A DNA stretch of 64,000 bases from Antedon mediterranea (lineage: Eukaryota; Echinodermata; Crinoidea; Comatulida; Antedonidae), in assembly GCF_964355755.1 (NCBI RefSeq), contig NC_092674.1:997001-1061000 (forward strand), written 5' to 3'. The number at the start of each line of letters is the position of its first letter. Within the stretch, counting starts at the first letter, position 1. Under the pieces are notes generated by a model. It was not told the origin of the DNA. It ran no database searches and saw only the letters and a list, made by a program, of their open reading frames with translations. A program made the translations under genes and the position numbers. Of the stretch, positions 25 through 51,400 are shown in pieces.

Positions 25-3000
25 AATCAACCAACACATAATCCCGAAGCGCCAAAACATCTGGAAAGGAAACAAGAGGAGTGTATGTTTTATCTTAAAA
101 CAGGAGCATGTCGATTCGGAAACAGGTCAGTTTTGTAAAAAAATCGTGATTAATTATGAAATTGAAATGCTGATGGTGGTTTTGATTGATATAATGAGTA
201 AAAACCAATATTTTATCTTGTTCTGAAGGTGTTCATGTCATCATCCTTACCCTATTATTAGTACAACACTTTATCTTGTTGTGAAGGTGTTCACGTCATC
301 CTCCTTACCCTATTATTAACCAATATGTTATCTTGTTCTGAAGGTGTTCACGTCATCATCCTTACCCTATTATTAACCAATATGTTATCTTGTTCTGAAG
401 GTGTTCACGTCATCATCCTTACCCTATTATTAACCAATATGTTATCTTGTTCTGAAGGTGTTCACGTCATCATCCTTACCCTATTATTAGTACAACACTT
501 TATCTTGTTCTGAAGGTGTTCACGTCATCATCCTTACCCTATTATTAACCAATATGTTATCTTGTTCTGAAGGTGTTCACGTCATCATCCTTACCCTATT
601 ATTAACCAATATGTTATCTTGTTCTGAAGGTGTTCACGTCATCATCCTTACCCTATTATTAGTACAACACTTTATCTTGTTCTGAAGGTGTTCACGTCAT
701 CATCCTTACCCTATTATTAGTACAACACTTTATCTTGTTGTGAAGGTGTTCACGTCATCATCCTTACCCTATTATTAACCAATATGTTATCTTGTTCTGA
801 AGGTGTTCACGTCATCATCCTCACCCTATTATTAACCAATATGTTATCTTGTTCTGAAGGTGTTCACGTCATCATCCTTACCCTATTATTAGTACAACAT
901 TTTATCTTGTTGTGAAGGTGTTCACGTCATCATCCTTACCCTATTATTAACCAATATGTTATCTTGTTGTGAAGGTGTTCACGTCATCATCCTTACCCTA
1001 TTATTAACCAATATGTTATCTTGTTCTGAAGGTGTTCACGTCATCATCCTTACCCTATTATTAACCAATATGTTATCTTGTTCTGAAGGTGTTCACGTCA
1101 TCATCCTTACCCTATTATTAGTACAACACTTTATCTTGTTCTGAAGGTGTTCACGTCATCATCCTTACCCTATTATTAACCAATATGTTATCTTGTTCTG
1201 AAGGTGTTCACGTCATCATCCTCACCCTATTATTAACCAATATGTTATCTTGTTCTGAAGGTGTTCACGTCATCATCCTTACCCTATTATTAGTACAACA
1301 CTTTATCTTGTTCTGAAGGTGTTCACGTCATCAGCCTTACCTTATTATTAGTACAACACTTTATCTTGTTGTGAAGGTGTTCACGTCATCATCCTTACCC
1401 TATTATTAGTACAACACTTTATCTTGTTCTGAAGGTGTTCACGTCATCATCCTTACCCTATTATTAGTACAACACTTTATCTTGTTGTGAAGGTGTTTAC
1501 GTCATCATCCTTACCCTATTATTAACCAATATGTTATCTTGTTCTGAAGGTGTTCACGTCATCATCCTTACCCTATTATTAACCAATATGTTATCTTGTT
1601 CTGAAGGTGTTCACGTCATCATCCTTACCCTATTATTAGTACAACACTTTATCTTGTTCTGAAGGTGTTCACGTCATCATCCTTACCTTATTATTAGTAC
1701 AACACTTTATCTTGTTCTGAAGGTGTTCACGTCATCATCCTTACCCTATTATTAGTACAACACTTTATCTTGTTCTGAAGGTGTTCACGTCATCATCCTT
1801 ACCCTATTATTAACCAATATGTTATCTTGTTCTGAAGGTGTTCACGTCATCATCCTTACCCTATTATTAACCAATATGTTATCTTGTTCTGAAGGTGTTC
1901 ACGTCATCATCCTTACCCTATTATTAGTAAAACACTTTATCTTGTTCTGAAGGTGTTCACGTCATCATCCTTACCCTATTATTAACCAATATGTTATCTT
2001 GTTCTGAAGGTGTTCACGTCATCATCCTCACCCTATTATTAACCAATATGTTATCTTGTTCTGAAGGTGTTCACGTCATCCTCCTTACCCTATTATTAGT
2101 ACAACACTTTATCTTGTTCTGAAGGTGTTCACGTCATCATCCTTACCCTATTATTAGTACAACACTTTATCTTGTTCTGAAGGTGTTCACGTCATCATCC
2201 TTACCCTATTATTAACCAATATGTTATCTTGTTGTGAAGGTGTTCACGTCATCATCCTTACCCTATTATTAACCAATATGTTATCTTGTTCTGAAGGTGT
2301 TCACGTCATCATCCTTACCCTATTATTAACCAATATGTTATCTTGTTCTAAAGGTGTTCACGTCATCATCCTTACCCTATTATTAACCAATATGTTATCT
2401 TGTTCTGAAGGTGTTCACGTCATCATCCTTACCCTATTATTAACCAATATGTTATCTTGTTCTGAAGGTGTTCACGTCATCATCCTCACCCTATTATTAA
2501 CCAATGTGTTATCTTGTTCTGAAGGTGTTCACGTCATCATCCTTACCCTATTATTAGTACAACACTTTATCTTGTTCTGAAGGTGTTCACGTCATCATCC
2601 TTACCTTATTATTAGTACAACACTTTATCTTGTTCTGAAGGTGTTCACGTCATCATCCTTACCCTATTATTAGTACAACACTTTATCTTGTTCTGAAGGT
2701 GTTCACGTCATCCTCCTTACCCTATTATTAACCAATATGTTATCTTGTTCTGAAGGTGTTCACGTCATCATCCTTACCCTATTATTAACCAATATGTTAT
2801 CTTGTTCTGAAGGTGTTCACGTCATCATCCTTACCCTATTATTAACCAATATGTTATCTTGTTCTGAAGGTGTTCACGTCATCATCCTTACCCTATTATT
2901 AGTAAAACACTTTATCTTGTTCTGAAGGTGTTCACGTCATCATCCTTACCCTATTATTAACCAATATGTTATCTTGTTCTGAAGGTGTTCACGTCATCAT

Positions 3001-6000
3001 CCTCACCCTATTATTAACCAATATGTTATCTTGTTCTGAAGGTGTTCACGTCATCCTCCTTACCCTATTATTAGTACAACACTTTATCTTGTTCTGAAGG
3101 TGTTCACGTCATCATCCTTACCCTATTATTAGTACAACACTTTATCTTGTTCTGAAGGTGTTCACGTCATCATCCTTACCCTATTATTAACCAATATGTT
3201 ATCTTGTTGTGAAGGTGTTCACGTCATCATCCTTACCCTATTATTAACCAATATGTTATCTTGTTCTGAAGGTGTTCACGTCATCATCCTTACCCTATTA
3301 TTAACCAATATGTTATCTTGTTCTAAAGGTGTTCACGTCATCATCCTTACCCTATTATTAACCAATATGTTATCTTGTTCTGAAGGTGTTCACGTCATCA
3401 TCCTTACCCTATTATTAACCAATATGTTATCTTGTTCTGAAGGTGTTCACGTCATCATCCTCACCCTATTATTAACCAATGTGTTATCTTGTTCTGAAGG
3501 TGTTCACGTCATCATCCTTACCCTATTATTAGTACAACACTTTATCTTGTTCTGCAGGTGTTCACGTCATCATCCTTACCCTATTATTAGTACAACACTT
3601 TATCTTGTTCTGAAGGTGTTCACGTCATCCTCCTTACCCTATTATTAGTACAACACTTTATCTTGTTCTGAAGGTGTTCACGTCATCATCCTTACCCTAT
3701 TATTAACCAATATGTTATCTTGTTCCGAAGGTGTTCACGTCATCCTCCTTACCCTATTATTAGTACAACACTTTATCTTGTTCTGAAGGTGTTCACGTCA
3801 TCATCCTTACCCTATTATTAACCAATATGTTATCTTGTTCTGAAGGTGTTCACGTCATCATCCTTACCCTATTATTAACCAATATGTTATCTTGTTCTGA
3901 AGGTGTTCACGTCATCATCCTCACCCTATTATTAACAAATATGTTATCTTGTTCTGAAGGTGTTCACGTCATCATCCTCACCCTATTATTAACCAATATT
4001 TTATCTTGTTCTGAAGGTGTTCACGTCATCATCCTTACCCTATTATTAGTACAACACTTTTAATACGAGGTATGTTCACATGTTATTCTATGGAGCAAAG
4101 CTATAGAGATGAGTATGATGCTGATATTGCACTAGAGTTTGATGAAACAGAAACTCACACAGCCTTCCTTGAATTCTATGATGATGTGTTAGCAGAGTTC
4201 AGAAAAGCTGGCAAGGTTGTTCAGTTTAAGGTATACAATCTGTTTTTCTGCATACAATGATAACATTTTCATAAATACAATAACAAAAAGAAAGCAAAAA
4301 ATTATCAATTATTAAAATTTTATTTCAACTAGGTGTGTAAAAATTGGGAATCTCATTTGCGAGGTAATGTGTATGTTGAGTTTGAAAGCGAGGCAAGTTG
4401 TAGCAGTGCTTTCAGTATGTTTAACGCCAGATTCTACGCAGGTAGACAGATGTCGTGTGAATACTCCCCAGTAACTAATTGGAAAGCTGCTATTTGTGGT
4501 AAGTATATCTTATCAATAAATATTCAAATGCATTTAAATAATTGTGTACTGCATTCTATGTGTTTTATATTTTGTTGTGGTATTGAGTGGCACCGGATAC
4601 TTGTTTGGGTTCAATTCCTGTACTGGTAAAATATTTAATTTTGCAATTTATTTTGATTAAATGCTCAAATTTTACCAATTATTTTAAGTACATCAAATCT
4701 TTATAAATTCTTTTCTTCTATAGGTTTGTTTTACCAGAAGAAATGCCCAAAAGGAAAGAATTGCAATTTTCTTCATGTATTCAGAAATCCAGGAAATGAG
4801 TTTTTCGAGTCTGATCGAGCATCAGGTATGAGGGGTTCACAGAGAGGGGATTGGAGCAGTCGGCGGTCACATATGGGAAGTGAAAGAAGTTTCAGGACTC
4901 GCCATAGATGGCATTCAAGAGATGATGAAAGAGAGTATAGTAGGCGGCGACACAGAAGTAGAAGCAAAGACCGGCGGCGTAGAGGGAGCAAGGAGAGAAG
5001 AAGGAGCAGAAGTCACAGTAGGGAAAGAAATAGAAGTAAGAGTAGAGAAAGGCACAGAAAAAGGAAGAAAAATCAAAGTAAAGAAAGATATTCAAACAGG
5101 GATGATGTCAAGAGAAGTGAACGTAGCAGAAGTAAAGATAGATCAAGAAGTAAAAGCAGAGAGAGAAAACAAATTAAAGGAAGAAGTAGTAAAAGTAGAG
5201 ATAGATCAAGAAGTAACAGCAAAGAGAAAAAACAAATTAAAGGACGAAGTAGCAGAAGTAGAGATAGATCAAGAAGTAACAGCAGAGAGAGAAAACAAAT
5301 TAAAGAAAGAAGTAGCAGAAGTAGAGATAGATCAAGAAGTAACAGCAGAGAGAGAAAAGAAATTAAAGGAAGAAGTAGCAAAAGTAAAGATAGATCAAGA
5401 AGTAACAGCAGAGAGAAAAAACAAATTAAAGGACGAAGTAGTAAAAGTAGAGATAGATCAAGAAGTAACAGCAGAGAGAGAAAACAAATTAAAGAAAGAA
5501 GTAGCAGAAGTAGAGATAGATCAAGAAGTAACAGCAGAGAGAAAAAACAAATAAAAGGAAGAAGTAGCAGAAGTAGAGATAGATCAAGAAGTAACAGCAG
5601 AGAAAGAAAGCAAGAGATGCGCAAAGAAAGAAGGTCTCGTAGTCAAAGTAGAGAAACAGCACATTATCAAATACACAGTAATTCCACAAGTCCAGAAGAA
5701 CGTTCTAGAAGATCTAGAAGTTGCAGCAGAGAAGCAATTCAACGTTCAAAAAGATCACAAAGTAGAAAAAGAGACGGTAAAAAGCAAAGTCATTCAAAGA
5801 GTAATTCTATAAATTCAATTTACGAGAGAGAAATAAAACTTGAAAAAATACCGAAACAAGCATCACCTAACCAAATGGATAGATCTGGGAGCAGTCCATT
5901 AGAAGGGTCAAAAGGGTCATGTCAGAAAGAAACAAACTTTATAGTAAGCAATATTAAACAATTGCTAGAAGAGAAATACATGAATAAACATAAAAAATCG

Positions 6001-6114
6001 AAGCATAAAAAACACAAGAAAGACAAAAGGGTTAATACAAAACTTAACGAAATGATTGATGATCATAATTCAGAAAGTGGAAAAAAGTCTGCTAAGAATG
6101 GTAAAGATTATTAA
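25..6114 (+). CDS. ZRSR2: ZRSR2/URP-like U2AF35-related splicing factor (5'-partial)
   Basis: Four exons are visible: 25-125, 4017-4230, 4333-4498 and 4724-6114 (stop TAA 6112-6114). All junctions are GT-AG and the phases (2, 0, 1) keep one frame; upstream exons lie outside the window. Domain order: CCCH finger C-x8-C-x5-C-x3-H split by the first intron (CMFYLKTGAC...CSRHH); a UHM/RRM-like domain (GMFTCYSMEQ, HLRGNVYVEFE, AGRQMSCEYSPV); a second CCCH finger C-x7-C-x5-C-x3-H (ICGLFYQKKCPKG, CNFLHVFRNP); then about 430 residues rich in RS and KH. This matches vertebrate ZRSR2, which contacts 3' splice sites and supports U12-type intron splicing in the nucleus. The RS tail is longer than the human one because of an internal 21-residue repeat. 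The family assignment is firm; the function here is inferred from the family. Confidence 0.93.
203..4060 (+). repeat. 57/58-bp minisatellite spanning the 3' splice site of ZRSR2
   Basis: Roughly 65 tandem units fill the intron between exons 25-125 and 4017-4230. Each unit contains a pyrimidine-rich tract ending in TTGTTCTGAAG, identical to the true acceptor, followed by the first 40 or so bases of the downstream exon (GTGTTCACGTCATCATCC). Two types alternate: a 57-bp unit (AACCAATATGTTATC junction) and a 58-bp unit (AGTACAACACTTTATC junction). The last 58-type unit is the start of the real exon. A higher-order duplication of about 975 bp is visible: variant units at 2221 and 2346 recur at 3196 and 3321. 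Confidence 0.95.
5127..5610 (+). repeat. 63-bp in-frame tandem repeat encoding the RS domain
   Basis: About 7.5 copies of a 63-bp unit lie in the last ZRSR2 exon and encode a 21-residue unit of the type RSRSNSRERKQIK followed by (E/G)RSS(R/K)SRD. Copies differ by K/R and E/G changes but keep the frame, so expansion simply lengthens the arginine-serine tail. The leucine-rich open frames on the opposite strand are shadows of this repeat. Confidence 0.9.
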
Positions 6115-6400: not shown

Positions 6401-8149
6401 GGTGGCCCACAACTGTCACGCACACTATAACACAGAATCACACAATTAAAGAAGGAATTACACAATTAAAGAAGGAATCACACAATAAAAGAAGAAATCG
6501 CACAATTAAAGAAGAAATCGCATATAAACAAAAGAAAGCATGAAAATATAAAACGAAATGCACAAATAAAGAAGAGCTAAGCACAATTAAAGAAGTCCGA
6601 CACAAATTCGAAAGCTCCTCGCACAATTAAAGAAGTCCGCAACAAATTCGAAAGCTCCTCGCACAATTAAAGAAGTCCGCAACAAATTCGAAAGCTACTC
6701 GCACAATTAAAGAAGTCCGCAACAAATTAAAGTACAGTAGTCCGTATGGAACGCCATCGCTGCCTCCGGCAGCAAACTTAATTCTATTCGGCTCTTTTAC
6801 TATTACGTTCGGCTCTTTTAGCATTCGGCGCATTTCTATTCGGCCCATTTACCATTACGTTCGGCTCTTTCAGCATTCGGCGCATTTCTATTTGGCCTAT
6901 TTACCATTACGTTCGGCTCTTTCAGCATTCGGCGCATTTCTATTTGGCCCATTTACCATTACGTTCGGATCTTTCTGTATTGATTTGGCCCTTTTTTATT
7001 CGGCTCTTTCTGCATTACGTTCGGCTCTTATTGATTTGGCCCTTTTTTATACGCCGCAATTAAATTCTAACCTTTTACATGCGGTCAAATGGAAGAAAAT
7101 CAACGGCTGGAAACGAGTCTATGAAAAGTTTACAAAACAAATAGATGCAGCATGTAGAGTGTTTGGTTGGTTGAATTAAATGAATTTGAAAGCTATTTCA
7201 ATATGACTAATCATGTTATTGACATGATTAATGTGTTAGAGAAGTTGCAATTGTCCCACCTTATTGACCATTTTGAGAGAGAAAAGGTTGATTTATGGCA
7301 TAGGCTAGCTAGGCCTAGCCTAGTGTCAGCCTAACATTTAATAATAATAATTTACCCTTTCTCGCTCAAAATTTGTTAAAAGATGAATTAATTTTAGGTT
7401 ATTCAACACATCTTTAATCGGTTGGCTACTCATGGTTGGCGCCATGATGATGAAATGTTTGTAAACTTTTCATAGAATCATTTCCAGTCGTTGATTTTCT
7501 TCCATTTGACCCCATGTCAAAGGTTAGATTTTAATTGCGCCATATAAAAAAATGCCGATTTAAAAAGAGCCCAACGTAATGCAGAAAGAGCCGAATATAA
7601 AAGGGCCGAATCAAAAAGAGCCGAACGCAATGTTAAATGGGCCGAATAAAAAAGAGCCGAATGCTGAAAGAGCCGAACGTAATGGTAAATGGGCCAAATA
7701 GAAATGCGCCGAATGCTGAAAGAGCCGAACGTAATGGTAAATGGGCCGAATAGCGCCGAATGGTAAAAGAGCCGAACGTAATAGAATTAAAGCTTGCTGC
7801 CGGAGGCAGCGATGGCGTTCCATACGGACTACTGTACTTTAATTGTGCGAGGAACATTCGAATTTGTTGCGGACTTCTTTAATTGTGCGAGGAGCTTTTG
7901 ATTTTGTTGCGAACTTCTTTAATTGTGCGAGGAGCTTTCGAATTTGTTGCGGACTTCTTTAATTGTGCTTAGCTCTTCTTTAATTGCGCGTTTCTTCTTT
8001 ATTTGTGCATTTCGTCTTATATTTTCATGCTTTCTTTTGTTTATATGCGATTCCTTCTTTAATTGTGTGATTTCTTCTTTAATTGTGTGATTCCTTCTTT
8101 AATTGTGTGAATATGATTTATATAGTGTGCGTGACAGTTGTGGGCCACC
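6401..8149. mobile_element. Foldback-type element with about 700-bp inverted arms
   Basis: The left arm (6401 to about 7137) is the reverse complement of the right arm (about 7463-8149). The ends are GGTGGCCCACAACTGTCACG and its complement. Each arm holds two internal tandem arrays: a 40-bp repeat (CACAATTAAAGAAGTCCGC...) and a 51/52-bp repeat (ACCATTACGTTCGGCTC...). The spacer of about 325 bp has no coding potential. The open frames in the arms are repeat artefacts. The structure resembles FB/foldback DNA elements; the superfamily is not determined and no clear target-site duplication is seen. Confidence 0.75.
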
Positions 8150-14331: not shown

Positions 14332-17300
14332 ATGGTCGTCGGCAATATGTCACCAAATTGTGTCGTATTGATCCTAGCAGGGTTTGCAGTTATCATGACA
14401 GGTAATACTATTTCTGTTATTCACTTTTATTATTTATTGTTATATCACTGAGATTTTTAATATTATTTTCTTCTTTCGATATTCTGTTAATGTTTTTATT
14501 TTGTAAAGACACCAGTCTTTTTTAAAGCTTTTCCCCACACTCTTGGATGGCGGCTGCAACGAAAGTTAGTTGACCAAGCAACAGTTCTGATGATACATCG
14601 CGATTGGTCAAAATTATTTTGCTGCGCGCTTCTTACGTCCTTGCGTTGCGTCCTAGTGGGAACCAAGCTTTATAAAACAAATAAAAGTGTATAGGTACTT
14701 ATTACTATACTGTAATATAGAATATCGCGTTATCCATTTTGACGCAAACGATTGGTGTCACGGACCAACCGTTTCAAATGGTGACGTAATTACTATTATT
14801 AGTTTAGGGATAAGCTCTGGATTTCACCAGGGAGAACTCCCGGATTTAACACCATTTTCTGTTAGGCCTGGTTTAACAAATTGTGTATGGGCGTATGATA
14901 AGGTCACCGGAGCGGGCATCATCTAACAGTTGCTTGAATAAAATGAAATAGGCCTATACCAAATAGAAAAAAAACATGTTAAACAATATTGAGCGGAAAA
15001 CTGAAACCTTATTTCTTGGAGTGTACAAATCCAAAAAAAGAAATAACCAGTCACCAAAATTCCCAATATCATTGGAGCTTCAGATTATCTCTCTAATTTA
15101 GATAAACTTGTTAAATTACAGAAACGTTCAGCCATAATTATCATACCATTTGATATCAATAAAGTTCAATTATCAATATTTATGTTTCAGTATTTTAAGA
15201 AAACAAATCCTAATCCTATGTTAAAATTGTTAAATATTTATACTAAGAAAACTCATTCATATAATTGTAGAAATCATTCTGTTCCAGTTCCCTTCGTCAG
15301 AAAAAGTCTTTTTGTTTGTTTCTGTTTCTGGTCCTAATTTATGGAATAATCTCGATGCTTCACTTCTGTTTCTTTACCAGCTTTTAAAAGTAAATTAAAA
15401 AATAAATTAAAAAAAATAAATACCAACAATAATTTTATATAGCATTTATTAAGGTAGCCTTTTTTATCTTTTTTTTCTCTCTCTCGGAGTCATGGTGAGA
15501 CAAGTTTTTGACTTCTAATCATGAACCCAATGATGGCATTCCTTTCTCTTTTTTACCTTTTCTTGTTTTTGTATTGTATTACTGTTTCTTATTGTTTAGT
15601 ATTCTTGTATTTAAGCATTATTGTATAAATGTTATGTTGAACTTGAACTTCTTCTTTCTAAAATAAAGATAAAATGCATATTTCTGTTTTTTTACTATGA
15701 ATAAAAATATTAGAATAAAAAGATAGGGGCCTAACTCACTTAACTCCAAATTCTTTATACGATTTAATCAATTAACTTCCATTTTGATGTGCTAAATCGA
15801 CTAAAAAGCCGAATCAAAAGTTGCAGTTTAATACATTTATGTTATTCTTATGATTTGTGATATCTTTTAAAGCTACCGGAGAAGAGGCGGCAGGCAACAG
15901 AATGTATTTAGCTGTGTTTGATCATAGATATTCTGCTACTTACATCGAGTGGATTGAAACTAAGAAACCTCTACAAAACGAAACATTATTCTCTATATCG
16001 TATGCGTCACTTGACCACCACTGGACGGCACTAGCTGTCGACTACCATACGGGTAACGTTACCTTCCATGATAAAGAAAACCACTGGATATTTCTAAGCG
16101 ATGATTTTGTCTTAGAAGACAACGGCACAGCATATAGCATCGAAGGCGGTACATCTGGTAGAGTGAACGGTTTAGCGATTGACTGGTTAGCAAAAAATGT
16201 GTACTGGGTGGATGAGGGGTACAACTGGATCAAAATGACCAATTATACGGGAGGAGGAGAAGTGGTGATTGCTGATGTGGGTTTTGAGAAACCGTCTGGA
16301 ATAGCTTGCCATCCTTCCCAAGGGTAAGTAGTACTAGTAGTAGACAAATTTAAATCAAAAGGATAATAATAAAATCCTCCCCGTTTCATTCAATTACAGA
16401 CAAAACATCTTTTTGATTTTGTTTACCTAAAGATATCTTTTCTGGACCGAGTTAGGAGATAAATATCCACCGAAGATTGAACGATCAACAATGGCGGGAA
16501 ACAACCGAATTACAATCGTTGATGGGCTGACTGAACCGAGATCTATAGCTGTCGATACGATACTGGACAGGTAACATATTCTGGTACCGTATGTTATAGC
16601 ATTCTACTCATGTTGAAAAAAAACAAACTAGTTTTGTAATTTCTATTTTGATTATTATTAAAAAGTTTACAATAATTTAATCCTTTTGTTTTAGGATTTA
16701 TTGGACTGACAATAATGCAACAGCAATTAAAGTTGAATCTTCAGATCTTGACGGTAATGGAAGAAGAACTGAAATATCGGAACCAAAGTCTCTGGGTGTA
16801 TTTGATAGTATTGCAGTAGATGAAGTGAGTAACATAATAATTACCAAAGTCTCTGGGTGTATTTGATAGTATTGCAGTAGATGAAGTGAGTAACATAATA
16901 ATTACCAAAGTCTCTGGGTGTATTTGATAGTATTGTAGTAGATGAAGTGAGTAACATAATAATTACCAAAGTCTCTGGGTGTATTTGATAGTATTGCAGT
17001 AGATGAAGTTAGTTAACAATAACAATATTTAATATTATATCTTAATCGGATTATATCTATGTTGTTGTACTCCATTAACTGAAATCATATTTTGTTTAAT
17101 AACAATATTTGATATGTATTATATCTTAATAGGATTATATCTATGTTGTACTCCACCACATTTCTTTGGACAATATTATTCGTTATTATAAAAAGGCCGC
17201 TCCAAATGAATTGGTATACGAGTATAATGTTGGTACTGCAGTAAAACTGCTAGATTTATGTGTTGCTGGTCCAAACATCCAATCACAACCAGTGACATGT

Positions 17301-20300: not shown

Positions 20301-23300
20301 GAAAATACATAACTATAAGGTTACCATGGTTACCAAACTGACAAGAACTCACTTAACTCACTTAAATATTGAAATGTAATTGTGAATAAATGTGTACATG
20401 ACAAAGGCTAGCTAAAACATAATATATACATAGTAGAAGATATACTTATCTTAAAATTATTGTTTGAAGGATTTTATGCTACTAGCTGAACCATACAATA
20501 GTACGAGTGGAATAGTGGAAGCGATACACATATCAACTGGAGAACACGAAGGCTCTATAAATGTGAATTCGTCTATAACCGCTATCGAATTCGCCGACGA
20601 GTCTACTCAACCTGTGCCAATACCGACGACAAAAGGTTTGTATTATGGTCATGAAAAAAGTATAGTAACATACGATAGGACTACTGTTCAAATAACCATG
20701 CTAACAAACATTCTTGTAGGCCTACACAGCAGATGTTGCAAGTATGACGGGCCTTAATTCCTTCTCACATAAATGTAAGAGGAGAGTGAACCGAACACCC
20801 GCTTCAATCACCAACACCAAATAATGAAAAAAGGGACCTCTGCGAATCATCTTTTTTAGAGGGGACCAAACTCCTTTTTCTAATTTCTCTCTATGACCGA
20901 ATACAGTATTATGGCACGCCAGGATGGACAAAACCATTTCAAATGCCAATCCCAATAGACCGGGCGCCCGGAAGATTTATTCATGTGAAAAGATACAAAA
21001 GGTTTGATGATGTAGTTAGGTGCGTATTAGGGCGAGATGCAATATTCGATATTGCTGCCGGGTCACAGCCTGTACAAGGGGCCTGTGGGGATCATAACAT
21101 AGGGGGGTAAAAATGCATTTATTCATGTGAAGCGATACAAGGATAAACTTTTTTGGATATCATTCGCAGTGGGCTACTAATGATTACATCACCAATGACA
21201 GCAACTTTATCCTGTACGGGGCGCCAAACAGCAACATTTTAGGGCCACGCCCAAATGGGTTTATTCATGTGAAGCGATACAAGGTTGAATCTTTTTTTAA
21301 TGGCAGCAGTACATATTGGGGATGACAAAAACACCAATGACAGCAACTTTATCCTGTACATAAGCTCAGACAGCAGCCCTAAAGGTCCGCAGATTCCCCC
21401 TATTATTCGACTATATACTCGGCGCGTATCATGGCGTTCAGCTGAGTTAGAAATACGTGATAGTAGATACGGACTCGGACTGACAATAAATACACAGCAG
21501 AATGATAAAACAATAAATAAAGAGAGCAGTTGTTTCCTGTACCAAATCATCAAACATCAAACTCTTAGGAACTCGCCCAAAATGGGTTTATCCATGAAGT
21601 GTGTAATCATTTTTGAAAAAATGGGGGTTTTTTTTAACTTTTCCCGGTACACAGCAGCTCAAATACCCGAGGATTCGTGATCAACAATGTTGATAATACA
21701 AACACATTCACGATAACGAGTGACTTTTAGGCCTATTTTATAATTGAAATATATCTTTATTTTGGAATAATAAATAACACCAACAAAAACACTTAAAATA
21801 ACCAAAAGCAGATTTGTATTTTAGGGTATCATTTTGAACAATCAATATTATATCAAAATCATTATTTCACAACACAAAATAATATAATTTAAGAATATTT
21901 TTCAGATAAACTAATTAATAATTACACTCATAATGATCGACACCGGTACCGATTATTGTGCATTATTATTACTAGAGGGTGAGCTCGCTTCGCTCGCTCT
22001 CCCGGCCCTCTAGGAAGTGTAGACGATGGTTTTCGGAATGATAATGTTCTCCTTATACGTTTTCTGTCGGTTACCATTATTGAAAATGCTTGACATTCGT
22101 AAAACTAAACTACTTTGTTTCACAGTGTTTTAGATGATTAATAACATTTTAAAGTACAGTTTTTATTGTTTGGTAGGGCCCTTTGGGGAGGCGGAGGTCA
22201 TTTGAGGGAGGTGCTTATTCGAGGTATATATGTTAAATTTTGTAGTTTTAAATGGTAACATTTATAATAAAATGAAATCCTCTAATAGATATGAAAAGTG
22301 CTAAAAAAGAATAACAAATGCTTGGTAAATTGTACAGTGTGTCGGTAGTTACACTGCATGTAAAATATTCGACCTGGGTTCAGTTAGAGAAAAATAATGT
22401 GCAATAATCAATACAGTAGTCGATCCATTGTGGATAAGTAACGATATTTAATTTTGTCCAGTATTATTAATGTTGCCTTTTATCAGATATCACTGTATAA
22501 TGTTAATACAGTAACAATTTTAAATTTGACTTCGGCAGTTATAGTAAAATAATGTGCAATAATCGATACAGTAGTCGATCCATTATGGATAAGTAACGAT
22601 ATTTAATTTGGTCCTGAGTATGTTGCATTTTATCAGATATCACTGTATAATGTTAGTGCAGTAACAATTTTAAAATTGACTTGGGCAGTTATAGTTAAAT
22701 AATGTGCAATAATCGATACAGTAGTCGATCCATTATAGATAAGTAACGATATTTAATTTGGTCCTGAGTATGTTGCATTTTATCAGATATCACTGTCTAA
22801 TGTTAGTACAGTAACAATTTTAAATTTGACTTGGGCAGTTATAGTAAAATAATGTGCAGTAATCAATACAGTAGTCGATCCATTATGGATAAGTAACGAT
22901 ATTTAATTCGATTCAGTTTGTTGCGTTTTATCAGATATCACTTTAGTTAGTTAGTAAATAATGTGCAATAACCAATACAGTTAGTCGATCCATTGTGGAT
23001 AAGTAACGATATTTAATTTGGTTCAGTATTATTAATATTAATTAATGTTGCCTTTTATCAGATATCACTGTCTAATATTAGTACAGTAACAATTAAAAAT
23101 TTGACTTTGTTTCAGTTAAAGTAAAACAATGTGCAGTAATCGATACAGTAGTCGATCCATTATGGACAAGTAACGATGTTTAAAATGTTGGCAGATTAAG
23201 TTATTTGTTGGGTTTTATCAGTCTAATTCACATGAAAACGGTTACTTTTTTTATTTAAATTGAATTAAAAATACAGTAATAGTGTGCAATCGATAGTCTA

Positions 23301-34308: not shown

Positions 34309-37300
34309 ATGTTCAGTACCTACCTGATATTTCTAGTAGGAATGTTAGATTTTCTTTACACAGGTAACCGTTATTCATCTATTTCTCAAACGTTTTTAAA
34401 ATCATAGGCCTAAACCTCTTATTTTATTCATAATTTGTTATAAAAAATAAACGTTTTTATATTTTGTTCACAGTTAATGGAGAAGATAACAGACTGTACT
34501 TAGCAGTATTTGACCAAAGTAAATCTAATGCTGCCATTTTTTGGATTTCAGCTAATCCAGAAGTTTATGAAAATGACCGAAATTTAGAATTTGAAAAACT
34601 TTACACAGTTCCACGTTCTCCGTACATGCCATCATCACTTGTCTTTCGGTTCTCGGCGTTGGCAGTCGATTACCACGAAGGAAATGTAACATTCCACGAG
34701 CTGACCAACCATTGGATATACATGGCCCCTGATATTACTTCAGAATCTGATTACTCGATACCAGCGATTGAAGCTGGTACATCTGGTAGAGTGAACGGTT
34801 TAGCGATTGACTGGTTGGCAAATAATGTGTACTGGGTGGATGAGGGGTACAACTGGATCAAAATGACTAACTATAATGGAGAAGGAGAAGTCACCATTGC
34901 TGATATGGGTTTTGAGAAACCGTCTGGAATAGCTTGTCATCCTCACAAAGAGTAAGTATTGTGAGAAGAATAAAGAAACTTACTTAAATATACTCTAATC
35001 TAATGGTTGATGAATGTTATCGCCTGCGATAAGTAAACACAAGTATGCATTAGGTCAGGCATACACACCGAAAAAACACCTGGGCAAGGAGCAAAACATA
35101 ACTAAACTAATAATTTTGTATAATAAAATAAATAATGATAATAATAATAATAATATTAATGCGTAAATAAGAAGAGATGTATTTTGTTGAAATACCAAGA
35201 TTTTAAAATATTATGATTATTGAAAAAAACAATATAATATAAATTATTTTCTGAATGAAAATAACCCATTTTGATCAAATTAAAATCAGGATGTAACATA
35301 TCGGGATGAAAATTAAACAAGCAAAAAAAAAAACAAAAAGGGATCTGGGTTGGTTCTAGTAGATAATAACACCACACCATTTAACATTTTGTGGACAAAA
35401 GAACCAATCAAGTTTTTAGAAATATTTATTGGTTACGATACCAACTTATGTGAGCAAACAAATTGGGATGATAAGATTTTAAAATAAAAAAATACATTAA
35501 AAATGATATACAATGCTAGTATAATAGATGTACCAATATATGTATTCCCTCTTGTTGAAAAGGAAATTATTACATTTTCTATGGGGAAAAAGAAGGGAAC
35601 AAATAAAAAATTGTTAAAGAATGATGTTTTTTTATAGATGAAATAAAAGTGGGAAGAACCCATAAAAGACAAAACAAAAATTAAAATAAATAAATAAATA
35701 AAACCAAGATTTTTACTTCAAATATCAACCTTGATTGTTAATAAGGTTGACTTTTAATCTTGTCTCAAAAGTTTTCTATTCTGGACCGAGTTAGGAGATC
35801 AGTATCCACCTAAGATTGAAAGATCAACAATGGCGGGAAACAACCGAATTACAATTGTTGATGGGCTGACTGAACCAAGATCTGTAGCTGTAGACACGAT
35901 ACTGGACAGGTAACGCTTTGATTGTGTACACTAAAACACACATATTTCTTATGATATATGATTATTTGTTGTCATTCTTGGGTATTTTCCGAAAAATGTC
36001 AATATCAATGGTAAGATCCATACAACTGCTAAATAAAATAATTCAGATTTTTAATAGATTGTAATTAAAAATAAATGATTATGGATTGAAAGAATCTATA
36101 ATTAAGATTATGATTAAGTTTTTTTGGACGAATACATTAAATTATAAGGAAGAAAATATTCGGCATTTAGCGAGAGACGTTGTCTTCTCTATATGTATAG
36201 TTAAATAGGTCTATTAAAAGAATTTAAGCAAGTTCTGTTACTGGTTAGCCCTTCACAAGTTTTTGCTTTCTGAGATTTCGCTCTTTCTAATTTTCTGCAT
36301 AAAAACTGTTAAATGTTTACTAATGCTAGATAAACAACGCAAACTAAAGAAAAAATACCTGAAAATTGTTCATGTGAAAACTGGCAAATTTTTTGCTTTA
36401 TAATTTTACAGTTCTAAATCAAAATGAAAAGTAGGTTTGCCTAAACAATAATATCAACACTTAAACATAAAATGTCGATGCTTTTAGTTTGTTTTTTTTT
36501 TGTCTCTAAAAGCATCAGCAGTACATGTCGGGTAAAGTTCTTCATGGTTGAATACAATGCACTTATGATGCACTTGAGTGCTTGTAAAATGGTTTCGTAC
36601 AAATTGCGATTACATCTCTAGCTTGATTTAACCAATCCTTATGACACAACTGCGAAATTATCCAACTGTGAAAATTAATATTAAAAAATAACTAATTGTC
36701 TCAGAATTTATTGGACTGACAATACTGCAGCTGAAATTAAAGTTGAATCTTCTGATCTTGACGGTAATGGAAGAAGAATTGAAGTATCGGAACCAAAGTC
36801 TCTGGGTGTATTTGATAGTATTGCAGTAGATGAAGTGAGTAACATAATAATTACCAAAGTCTCTGGGTGTATTTGAATTATATTGCTGTAGATGAAGTGA
36901 GTAACATAATAATTACCAAAGTCTCTGGGTGTATTTGATAGTATTGCTGTGGATGAAGTGAGTAACATAATAATTACCAAAGTCTCTGGGTGTATTTGAT
37001 AGTATTGCAGTAGAGGAAGTGAGTAACATAATAATTACCAAAGTCTCTGGGTGTATTTGATAGTATTGCAGAAGATGATGTGAGTAACATAATAATTACC
37101 AAAGTCTATGTGTGTATTTGATAGTATTGCAGTGGATGAAGTGAGTAACATAATAATTACCAAAGTCTCTGGGTGTATTTGATAGTATTGCAGTAGATAA
37201 AGTAAGTAACATAATAATTACCAAAGTCTCTGGGTGTATATTTGTACTTACATCCCATTAATTTAATTAAATTCAACCAACTTGTTTTTATCTCGTAGAC

Positions 37301-48455: not shown

Positions 48456-51400
48456 ATGTTCAGTACCTACCGGATATTTCTAGTAGGAATATTAGATTTT
48501 CTTTACACAGGTAATCATTGTTCATCTATTTCTCAAATGTTTTAAAAATCATAGGCCTCCACCTCTTATTGTATTCATGATTTGTTATGAAAAATAAACA
48601 TTTTTATATTTTGTTCACAGTTAATGGAGACGATAACAGACTATACTTAGCCATATTTGACCAAAGTAGGTCTAATGCTGCCATTTTTTGGATTTCATCT
48701 AATCCAGAAGTTTATGAAAATGACCGAAATTTAGAATTTGAAAAACTTTACACAGTTCCACGTCCTCCGTACATACTTGCCTTTCGGTTCTCGGCGTTGG
48801 CAGTCGATTACCACGACGGAAATGTCACATTCCACGAGCTGACCAACCATTGGATATACATGGCCTCTGATATTACTGCAGAATCGGATTACTCAATACC
48901 ATCGATTGAAGCTGGTACATATGGCAGAGTGAATGGTTTGGCGATTGACTGGTTAGCGAAAAATGTGTACTGGGTGGATGAGGGGTACAACTGGATCAAA
49001 ATGACAAACTATATGGGAGAAGGAGAAGTCACCATTGCTGATGTGAATATTGAAAGACCCTCTGGAATAGCTTGTTATCCTCACAAAGGGTAAGTATTGT
49101 GAGAAGAAAGAAATTTACTTAAATATACTCTAATCTAATGGTTGATGAAAAGTAAACAAACGTATGTATTAATTAGGCATATGAACACCGTAAAACCACC
49201 TCGGCAAAGAGCAAAACATAACTAAACTAATAATTTTGTAGCCTATAATAAAATAAATAAATAATGATAATAATAAAAATATTAATGCGTAAATAGGGGA
49301 TGTATTTTGTTGAAATATCAAGAGTAAATTTTAAAATATTACGCTTATTGAAAAGTCTTGAAAAGCAAAAAGACAAAAAACAATATAATATAAATTATTT
49401 TCTTAATGAAAATAACCTATTTTGAGCTTGAAGAGAAATTACCGGTTCTTGTATAAAACCAGGATGTAACATATCGGAATTCAAATTAAACAAACAAAAA
49501 ACAAAAAAAGATTCTAGTAGATAATGACACCGCACCATTTAACATTTTGTGGACAAAAGAACCAATCAAGTTTTTAGGGATATTTATTGGTTACGATACC
49601 AAACAAATTGGGATGATAACATTTTAAAATTTAAAAAAAATACATTAAAAATTATATACAACGATAGTATAATAGATGTACCAATGTATTCCCTGTTGTT
49701 AAAAAGGAAATTTTTAAATTTTCTATGGGGAAGAAGAAGTGAACAAATAAAAAATGGTTAAAGAATGATACGTTTTTTATATTAGATTAAATAAAAGTGG
49801 GAAGAATCCACAAAAGACAAAAAAAAAAATTAAAAATAAATAAATAAAACCAGGATTTTCACTTCAAATAGGCCTACTAACATTGATTGTTAATAAGGTT
49901 GACTTTTAATTGTGTCTCAAAAGTTATCTATTCTGGACCGAGTTAGGAGACCAATATCCACCGAAGATTGAAAGATCAACAATGGCGGGACACAACCGAA
50001 TTATAATCGTTGATGGGCTGACTGAACCGAGGTCTATAGCTGTAGACACGATACTAGGCAGGTAACGCTTTGATTGTGTACACTAAAACACATATATTTC
50101 CTATGACATATTATTATTTTTTGTCATGTCATTCTTGGGTATTTTCAGAAAAATGCCAAGATCAATGGTAAGATCCATTCAACTGCTAAATAAAACAATT
50201 GAGATTTTAATGGATTGTAATTAAAAATTAAATTATTATGGATGGAAAGAATCTATAATTAAGATTTATGATTAAGTTTTTTTTTTGACGAATACATTAA
50301 ATTACCAAGAAAGAAAATATTCGGCATTTAGCGAGAGACGTTTTCTTCTCTATATGTATAGTTAAATAGGTCTATTAAAAAAATTTAAGCAAGTTCTGTT
50401 ACTGGTTAGCCCTTCACAAGTGTTTGCTTTAAGCAAGTTCTGTTACTGGTTAGCCCTTCACAAGTGTTTGCTTTAAGCAAGTTCTGTTACTGGGTAGCCC
50501 TTCACAAGTGTTTGCTTTAAGCAAGTTCTGTTACTGGGTAGCCCTTCACAAGTGTTTGCTTTAAGTAAGTTCTGTTACTGGTTAGCCCTTCACAAGTTTT
50601 TGCTTTCTGAGATTTCGCTCTTTCTAATTTTCTGCATAAAAACTGTTAAATGATTACTAATGTTAGTAAAAAATACCTGAAAATTGTTCATGTGAAAACT
50701 GGCAATTATTTGCTTTATAATTTTACAGTGCTAACTCAAAATGAAAGATAGTTTTGCCTAAACAATAATACCAACACTTAAAAGCCTGCAAATGAAATTT
50801 CGATGCTTTTAGTTTTTTATGTTGTAATTTCCTGTCTCTAAAAGCATAGGGTAAATTTCGGGTAAAGTTCTTCATGGTTGAATACAATGCACTATTTGAT
50901 GCACTTGAGTGCTTGTAAAATGGTTTCGTAAAACTGTGATTTCTAGCTTGATTTAACCAATCCTTTCGACACAACTGCGAAATTATGCAACTGTCAAAAT
51001 TATTATTAAAAAATAATTAATTTATCAGAATTTATTGGACTGACAATACTGCAAATGAAATTAAAGTTGAATCTTCTGATCTTAACGGTAATGGAAGACG
51101 AACTGAAGTATCGGAACCAACTTCTCAGGGTGTATTTGATAGTATTGCAGTAGATGAAGTGAGTAACATACTAATTACCAAAGTCTCTGGGTGTATTTGA
51201 TAGTATATTGCTGTGGATGAAGTGAGTAACATAATATCATATTATAATCTTTCATATTTTTTGCAAGCAGATATGACAATGATATCCAGTAATACTTTTT
51301 ATACCAATTTTTTAAAGTTACATTTAACCAACTCGTAGACGTATATATTTGTCGGTGGATCATCTTCGATCTTCGAAGATTTTATGCGTTATTACAGCAA

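Follow-up and report, generated by a model that had tools for sequence, protein, structure and literature searches.

Minisatellites built from copies of an intron-exon boundary have been described in lancelets as "mirages", in Adh3, troponin C, the globins BflGb6 and BflGb9, and PGBD5 (PMC3087553, PMC3902484). RT-PCR suggests that regular splicing is undisturbed at these loci, and the number of units varies between haplotypes (PMC3087553, PMC3902484); the boundaries of the clusters escape homogenisation, and the BflGb6 mirage was misassembled in the lancelet draft version (PMC3087553). Human CBS carries two related structures: 844ins68, in which the intron 7/exon 8 junction is duplicated and the distal site is strongly favoured, and a 31-bp VNTR that spans a donor (c.1444_1467+7) in 16-21 copies (PMC2630376). 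According to its title, Lievers et al. 2001, a reference given in PMC2630376, links the VNTR to reduced activity. Tandem repeats of U12-type 5' splice sites form the USSE of U11-48K and U11/U12-65K, where they take part in feedback (PMC5473595), and intron gain from tandem duplications carrying AGGT has been reported (Rogers 1989, ATP2A1, potato RdRp; PMC4974935).

The window analyzed here is the 64,000-nucleotide stretch C5:997001-1061000 (34% GC) of a 354-Mb assembly, which comprises 11 contigs of chromosome scale and 7 small ones. A U2AF35-related gene of the ZRSR2 type occupies the left end of the window; in it, the 3' splice junction of one intron is copied along a minisatellite (Table 1). 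We consider this array, with a probability of about 85%, to be a mirage whose growth has been tolerated, a reading that overlaps in part with the possibility, weighed below, that some transcripts are lost to the copies. Mirages would then probably extend beyond lancelets, since the 11 chromosome-scale contigs, compared with 18-20 in Branchiostoma, and the GC content of the window speak against that genus. The identity proposed for the gene in the initial annotation is upheld: the protein order is CCCH-RRM-CCCH-RS, Pfam places zf-CCCH and RRM_1 above cut-off and a weak second CCCH finger below it, and the PDB gives U2AF23 from fission yeast and U2AF35 from human as best matches. Judged by this CCCH - UHM/RRM - CCCH - RS architecture, it is a ZRSR2-type gene. 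The protein has an N-terminal SHKQYRALLKKEKRK stretch, encoded by exons further upstream. A genome search returned a single ZRSR2 gene, and no second gene or haplotype copy for a comparison of length; U2AF1, from which it is distinct, is encoded separately on C8. The ZRSR2 gene also contains a second minisatellite, at 5123-5613, where 7.8 copies of an in-frame 63-bp unit encode 21-aa RS-rich repeats of the RS tail.

Table 1. Positions of the ZRSR2 exons, the intronic array and the 61-bp arrays (numbered from the first letter of the window)
Feature	Position	Strand	Description	Basis
ZRSR2 exon	25..125	+	Ends ...CRFGNR, first two Cys of CCCH 1; donor CAG|GTCAGT at 126	Frame, translation
U2-type intron	126..4016	+	First acceptor about 0.1 kb after the donor; full length with the array 3.9 kb	Sequence
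Minisatellite	203..4060	+	66 units; each joins the intron 3' end and AAG|G to the opening 31-44 bp of the following exon	TRF, unit cutting
Block	1765..2787	+	Second copy at 2740-3762, with 6 mismatches over 1023 bp	
Decoy acceptor with CAG, not AAG	3555..3557	+	Exon would start at 3558	
Authentic exon, 214 nt	4017..4230	+	Completes CCCH 1 (Cys3, His) and opens the UHM/RRM	
ZRSR2 exon	4333..4498	+	Remainder of RRM	
Last ZRSR2 exon	4724..6113	+	Second CCCH finger, RS tail, stop	
61-bp array, LDL-receptor-like paralogue 1	16782..17026	+	Exon end plus 5' splice site	
61-bp array, LDL-receptor-like paralogue 2	36792..37239	+	About 7 copies	
61-bp array, LDL-receptor-like paralogue 3	51116..51233	+	About 2 copies	

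TRF reported the 3.86-kb minisatellite as one array with a 57-bp period (higher-order periods 172 and 459), 67 copies and 93% matches. Cutting at AG|GTGTTYA yielded 67 acceptors and 66 units of 19 sequence types, 40 of them 57 bp and 26 of them 58 bp long. The junction AAG|GTGTTC is present in 67 copies, namely the 66 tandem units and the true acceptor at 4016|4017, and its AG|GTGTT core is unchanged in all 67. It had been claimed that every unit carries the acceptor and that the copied part of the exon includes the third Cys codon and the His codon of CCCH finger 1, and both statements hold; the array itself was also called correctly, with a copy number given as about 65 where 66 extra copies are counted. 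The first acceptor of the array corresponds to a hypothetical exon start at 229 and the last to 4017. Units of both lengths join the intron end (..TTATCTTGTTCTGAAG) to the exon start (GTGTTCACGTCATCATCCTTACCCTATTATT..) and differ in how they close, the 57-bp unit by joining exon base ~31 to intron AACCAATAT and the 58-bp unit by joining exon base ~44 to the T-run preceding ATCTTG, which suggests that two duplications with unlike end points at the same junction seeded the array.

The ancestral sequence survives only at the two ends of the array: TATTTTATC is confined to the first and last acceptors, and the internal units share other variants, mostly TATGTTATC or CACTTTATC. The 19 unit types follow a non-periodic order with block structure, and the two copies of the 1023-bp block differ at so few positions that recent growth of the array in large steps is indicated, the block duplication itself being best read as a recent unequal exchange. 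No units of the array were found elsewhere in its own genome by genome search, and this restriction to the ZRSR2 locus, together with the length of the array, indicates that it did not arise by chance. Tandem arrays are often misassembled, as the BflGb6 mirage was in its draft (PMC3087553), and the array could in principle be a shorter one expanded by the assembly; this is extremely unlikely given the diversity of unit types, their non-periodic order and block structure, with the copy number taken as assembled, and the chromosome-scale assembly. Open frames of 119 and 150 aa lie within the array at 2221-2580 and 3196-3648, in the frame left open by runs of 57-bp units, and follow from a unit length that is a multiple of three.

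The authentic acceptor is the last copy. Only at the junction 4016|4017 does ...CMFYLKTGACRFGNR continue into CSRHHPYPIISTTLLIRGMF with an intact frame as far as the stop at 6113, and translation from each of the upstream acceptors (66/66) runs into a stop within 148 nt. The expectation that any upstream choice would be non-productive is thereby confirmed at the level of sequence. In the 57-bp units the stop is a TGA inside the same unit, as first described; in the 58-bp units, for which only TAG had been named, it is a TAA or TAG in the following unit. The single exception to this pattern is acceptor 3674, with its stop 148 nt in. In every case the stop of the decoy frame lies at least ~216 nt upstream of the next exon junction, so that the resulting mRNAs are predicted to be NMD-eligible under the usual rule. 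When the intron part of the unit was swapped for random pieces of the gene's own introns, however, chance alone placed a stop inside the array in 81% of the designs of random size; for the 57/31 and 58/44 designs the shares were 38% and 100%. Stops in arrays of this kind are the chance expectation and no sign of design. Missense changes are present in the exon parts of the decoys (HHP to HPP and Y to H, for example), the expected state of sequence that is never translated.

The initial annotation had offered two explanations, dose sensing or tolerated repeat growth, and our results favor the second. In the first, abundant ZRSR2 protein would bind the ladder of its own acceptors, upstream units would be used or the intron held, and the level of the protein would fall through NMD. 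The predicted non-productive outcome at all upstream acceptors fits this idea, as does the sequence of the decoys: at 40 acceptors, those following a 57-bp unit, a branch-like TTAAC ends 24 nt before the exon and is followed by a tract and AG, so that these decoys resemble complete U2-type 3' sites. Feedback through tandem unused splice sites also exists in genes of the minor spliceosome, where the USSE (PMC5473595) is the closest functional model available by analogy. Several observations speak against dose sensing. The stops, as described above, are expected by chance. The final 20 nt of the decoys are no poorer in variable positions than the remainder (8/40 vs 9/75, Fisher p = 0.28), a comparison to which homogenisation leaves little power; by this measure the splice signals of the decoys are not conserved beyond the rest of the unit.

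U12-type introns are the class for which ZRSR2 is best known. A search of the intron (126-4016) for a U12-type 5' splice site or branch consensus found none at <=1 mismatch, and a U12-type reading of the decoys was rejected on these grounds. The close paralogue U2AF1 has no array at matched exon edges, and autoregulation or a poison exon in ZRSR2 is not announced in the titles and abstract openings of papers on the topic. Dose sensing is possible, with support that does not go beyond the coincidence of gene and array, and we regard it as very unlikely. We hold equally little belief in the idea that a copied 3' splice site has been co-opted as a length-tunable sensor, in which the level of the protein would set the choice of upstream unit and the length of the array the gain.

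Splice-site strength raises a different difficulty. The authentic acceptor is AAG, the gene's eight other acceptors have C or T at -3, and the authentic site looks weak by comparison. Since one decoy has CAG, with an exon start at 3558, sequence strength alone would not be expected to select the right acceptor, and both features count, as far as sequence can tell, against the mirage reading. They agree with an unregulated cost, in which a fixed fraction of the transcripts would leak to NMD and the length of the array would tune ZRSR2 output between alleles without sensing. The reduced activity associated by title with the CBS VNTR is in line with such a cost, and 67 copies are far above the 3-6 units of BflGb6, which means that leakage could be larger here. 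Nevertheless, published mirages are spliced regularly, as RT-PCR suggests (PMC3087553, PMC3902484), and the last acceptor should be favored by exon definition; leakage as the main explanation is therefore unlikely.

The invariant AG|GTGTT also brings to mind recursive or AGGT-type splicing, in which each unit would act as a zero-length exon and the use of a wrong acceptor would be corrected when GTGTTC is spliced to an AG further on, with no change in the final mRNA. Tandem duplications bearing AGGT do yield introns elsewhere (PMC4974935). GTGTTC is nevertheless a poor donor next to the gene's own donors, and in an array that is homogenised little can be read from a few bases being invariant, which makes this mechanism highly improbable.

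The mirage reading is supported by other arrays in the same genome. A second, independent kind is found in the same window, where a 61-bp unit (..SLGVFDSIAVDE|gtgagtaacataataatt) repeats an exon end with its 5' splice site in LDL-receptor-like paralogues, a name that rests on YWTD-like motifs, Pfam giving no domain match for two fragments. Six paralogues on C5, three of them in the window, carry 2 to about 25 copies, and read-through in these arrays also reaches a stop. In two divergent paralogues without a fresh array the exon ends at the identical donor, which shows the array to be a derived addition. The largest array of this family (C5 1064853-1066400) contains the 5' splice junction about 25 times. 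At C5 1164500-1165500 (minus strand) a divergent paralogue has a degenerate second exon end followed by GTAAGT, perhaps an old mirage.

A third independent array lies at a Sushi exon on C2 at about 5.90 Mb (1610-2839 of the excerpt), where an 80-bp unit in about 15 copies repeats the exon end (..QADAEWSGSVPVCN) with the GTAAGT donor and the intron start. Three independent junction-spanning arrays, one of a 3' junction in ZRSR2 and those of 5' junctions in the LDL-receptor-like and Sushi genes, thus came from little searching; arrays across the matched exon edge occurred in 0/30 RRM loci, and 1/20 clustered Sushi loci had such an array, both small samples. Neither the LDL-receptor-like nor the Sushi family is a splicing factor. 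Small as they are, these samples show that such arrays recur and are not tied to splicing factors, and the presence of the same structure in non-splicing genes argues further against dose sensing.

Other repeats were noted during this work. On C4, at about 11.936-11.938 Mb, each unit of a 276-bp tandem array includes an entire Sushi exon together with its intron, a multiplication of complete exons. In the window, 20/40- and 52-bp arrays at 6435-8129 stand in inverted order on either side of about 7.2 kb, an arrangement that suggests a large inverted-repeat element, and arrays of 150 bp (22381-22942) and 44 bp (50384-50606) have no exon assigned to them.

Taken as a mirage, the ZRSR2 array would have started with short tandem duplications that happened to span the 3' splice junction. 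Two nested duplications with different end points would have produced the 57-bp and 58-bp unit types, unequal exchange or slippage would have multiplied them, and block duplications would have taken the intron from ~100 bp to 3.9 kb. Exon definition is an established principle, and the nearby downstream donor is most likely what selects the right acceptor. Splicing would go mainly to the last acceptor, the copy adjoining that donor, with exon definition acting over the 214-nt exon, and the decoys would be removed as part of the intron, their occasional use giving NMD-prone mRNA. That ZRSR2 encodes a 3'-splice-site factor would be a coincidence.

If this reading is correct, the ZRSR2 array amounts to a large natural experiment on how splice sites are chosen, with 67 near-identical acceptors of which one is productive. 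It suggests that junction-copying minisatellites of the sort known from lancelets are a common feature of a further animal genome, in which exon definition must be able to disregard dozens of equal decoys. Such arrays may also be raw material for intron gain and allele-dependent expression.

Comparison with described systems places the array nearest to lancelet mirages. As in lancelets, a real gene has one of its intron-exon boundaries duplicated in tandem in the manner of a minisatellite, with the authentic boundary at one end, where the last copy gives the intact ZRSR2 frame; the array is homogenised internally with the end units left out; and unrelated loci are involved, 5' and 3' boundaries both being affected within one genome. 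For length instability between alleles, the one haplotype covered offers the recent 1023-bp block duplication and the spread of 2 to about 25 copies among the LDL-receptor-like paralogues. BflGb6 is duplicated on the same side, with the intron 3' end and the exon 5' part, but in units of 150-160 bp, compared with 57/58 bp here and 10-72 bp in Adh3, and in far fewer copies; the host gene, a 3'-splice-site factor, also sets the ZRSR2 array apart. The CBS structures share tandem copies of an intron-exon junction, 844ins68 being likewise a 3' junction with its distal copy used; unlike the ZRSR2 array, they consist of one extra copy (844ins68) or of a 5' junction (VNTR). The USSE resembles it in that a splicing-machinery gene carries unused splice sites in tandem, with unproductive isoforms that are only predicted for ZRSR2, but it consists of conserved U12-type 5' sites acting as an enhancer, whereas the ZRSR2 sites are U2-type 3' sites lacking U12 consensus. 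AGGT intron gain also involves a tandem segment with AG|GT, and the potato RdRp duplication likewise spans the 3' end of an intron and the 5' part of an exon; in ZRSR2, by contrast, an existing intron has been lengthened and no new intron is indicated. Mirages are a kind already known from lancelets, of which the ZRSR2 array is most likely a strikingly large example.
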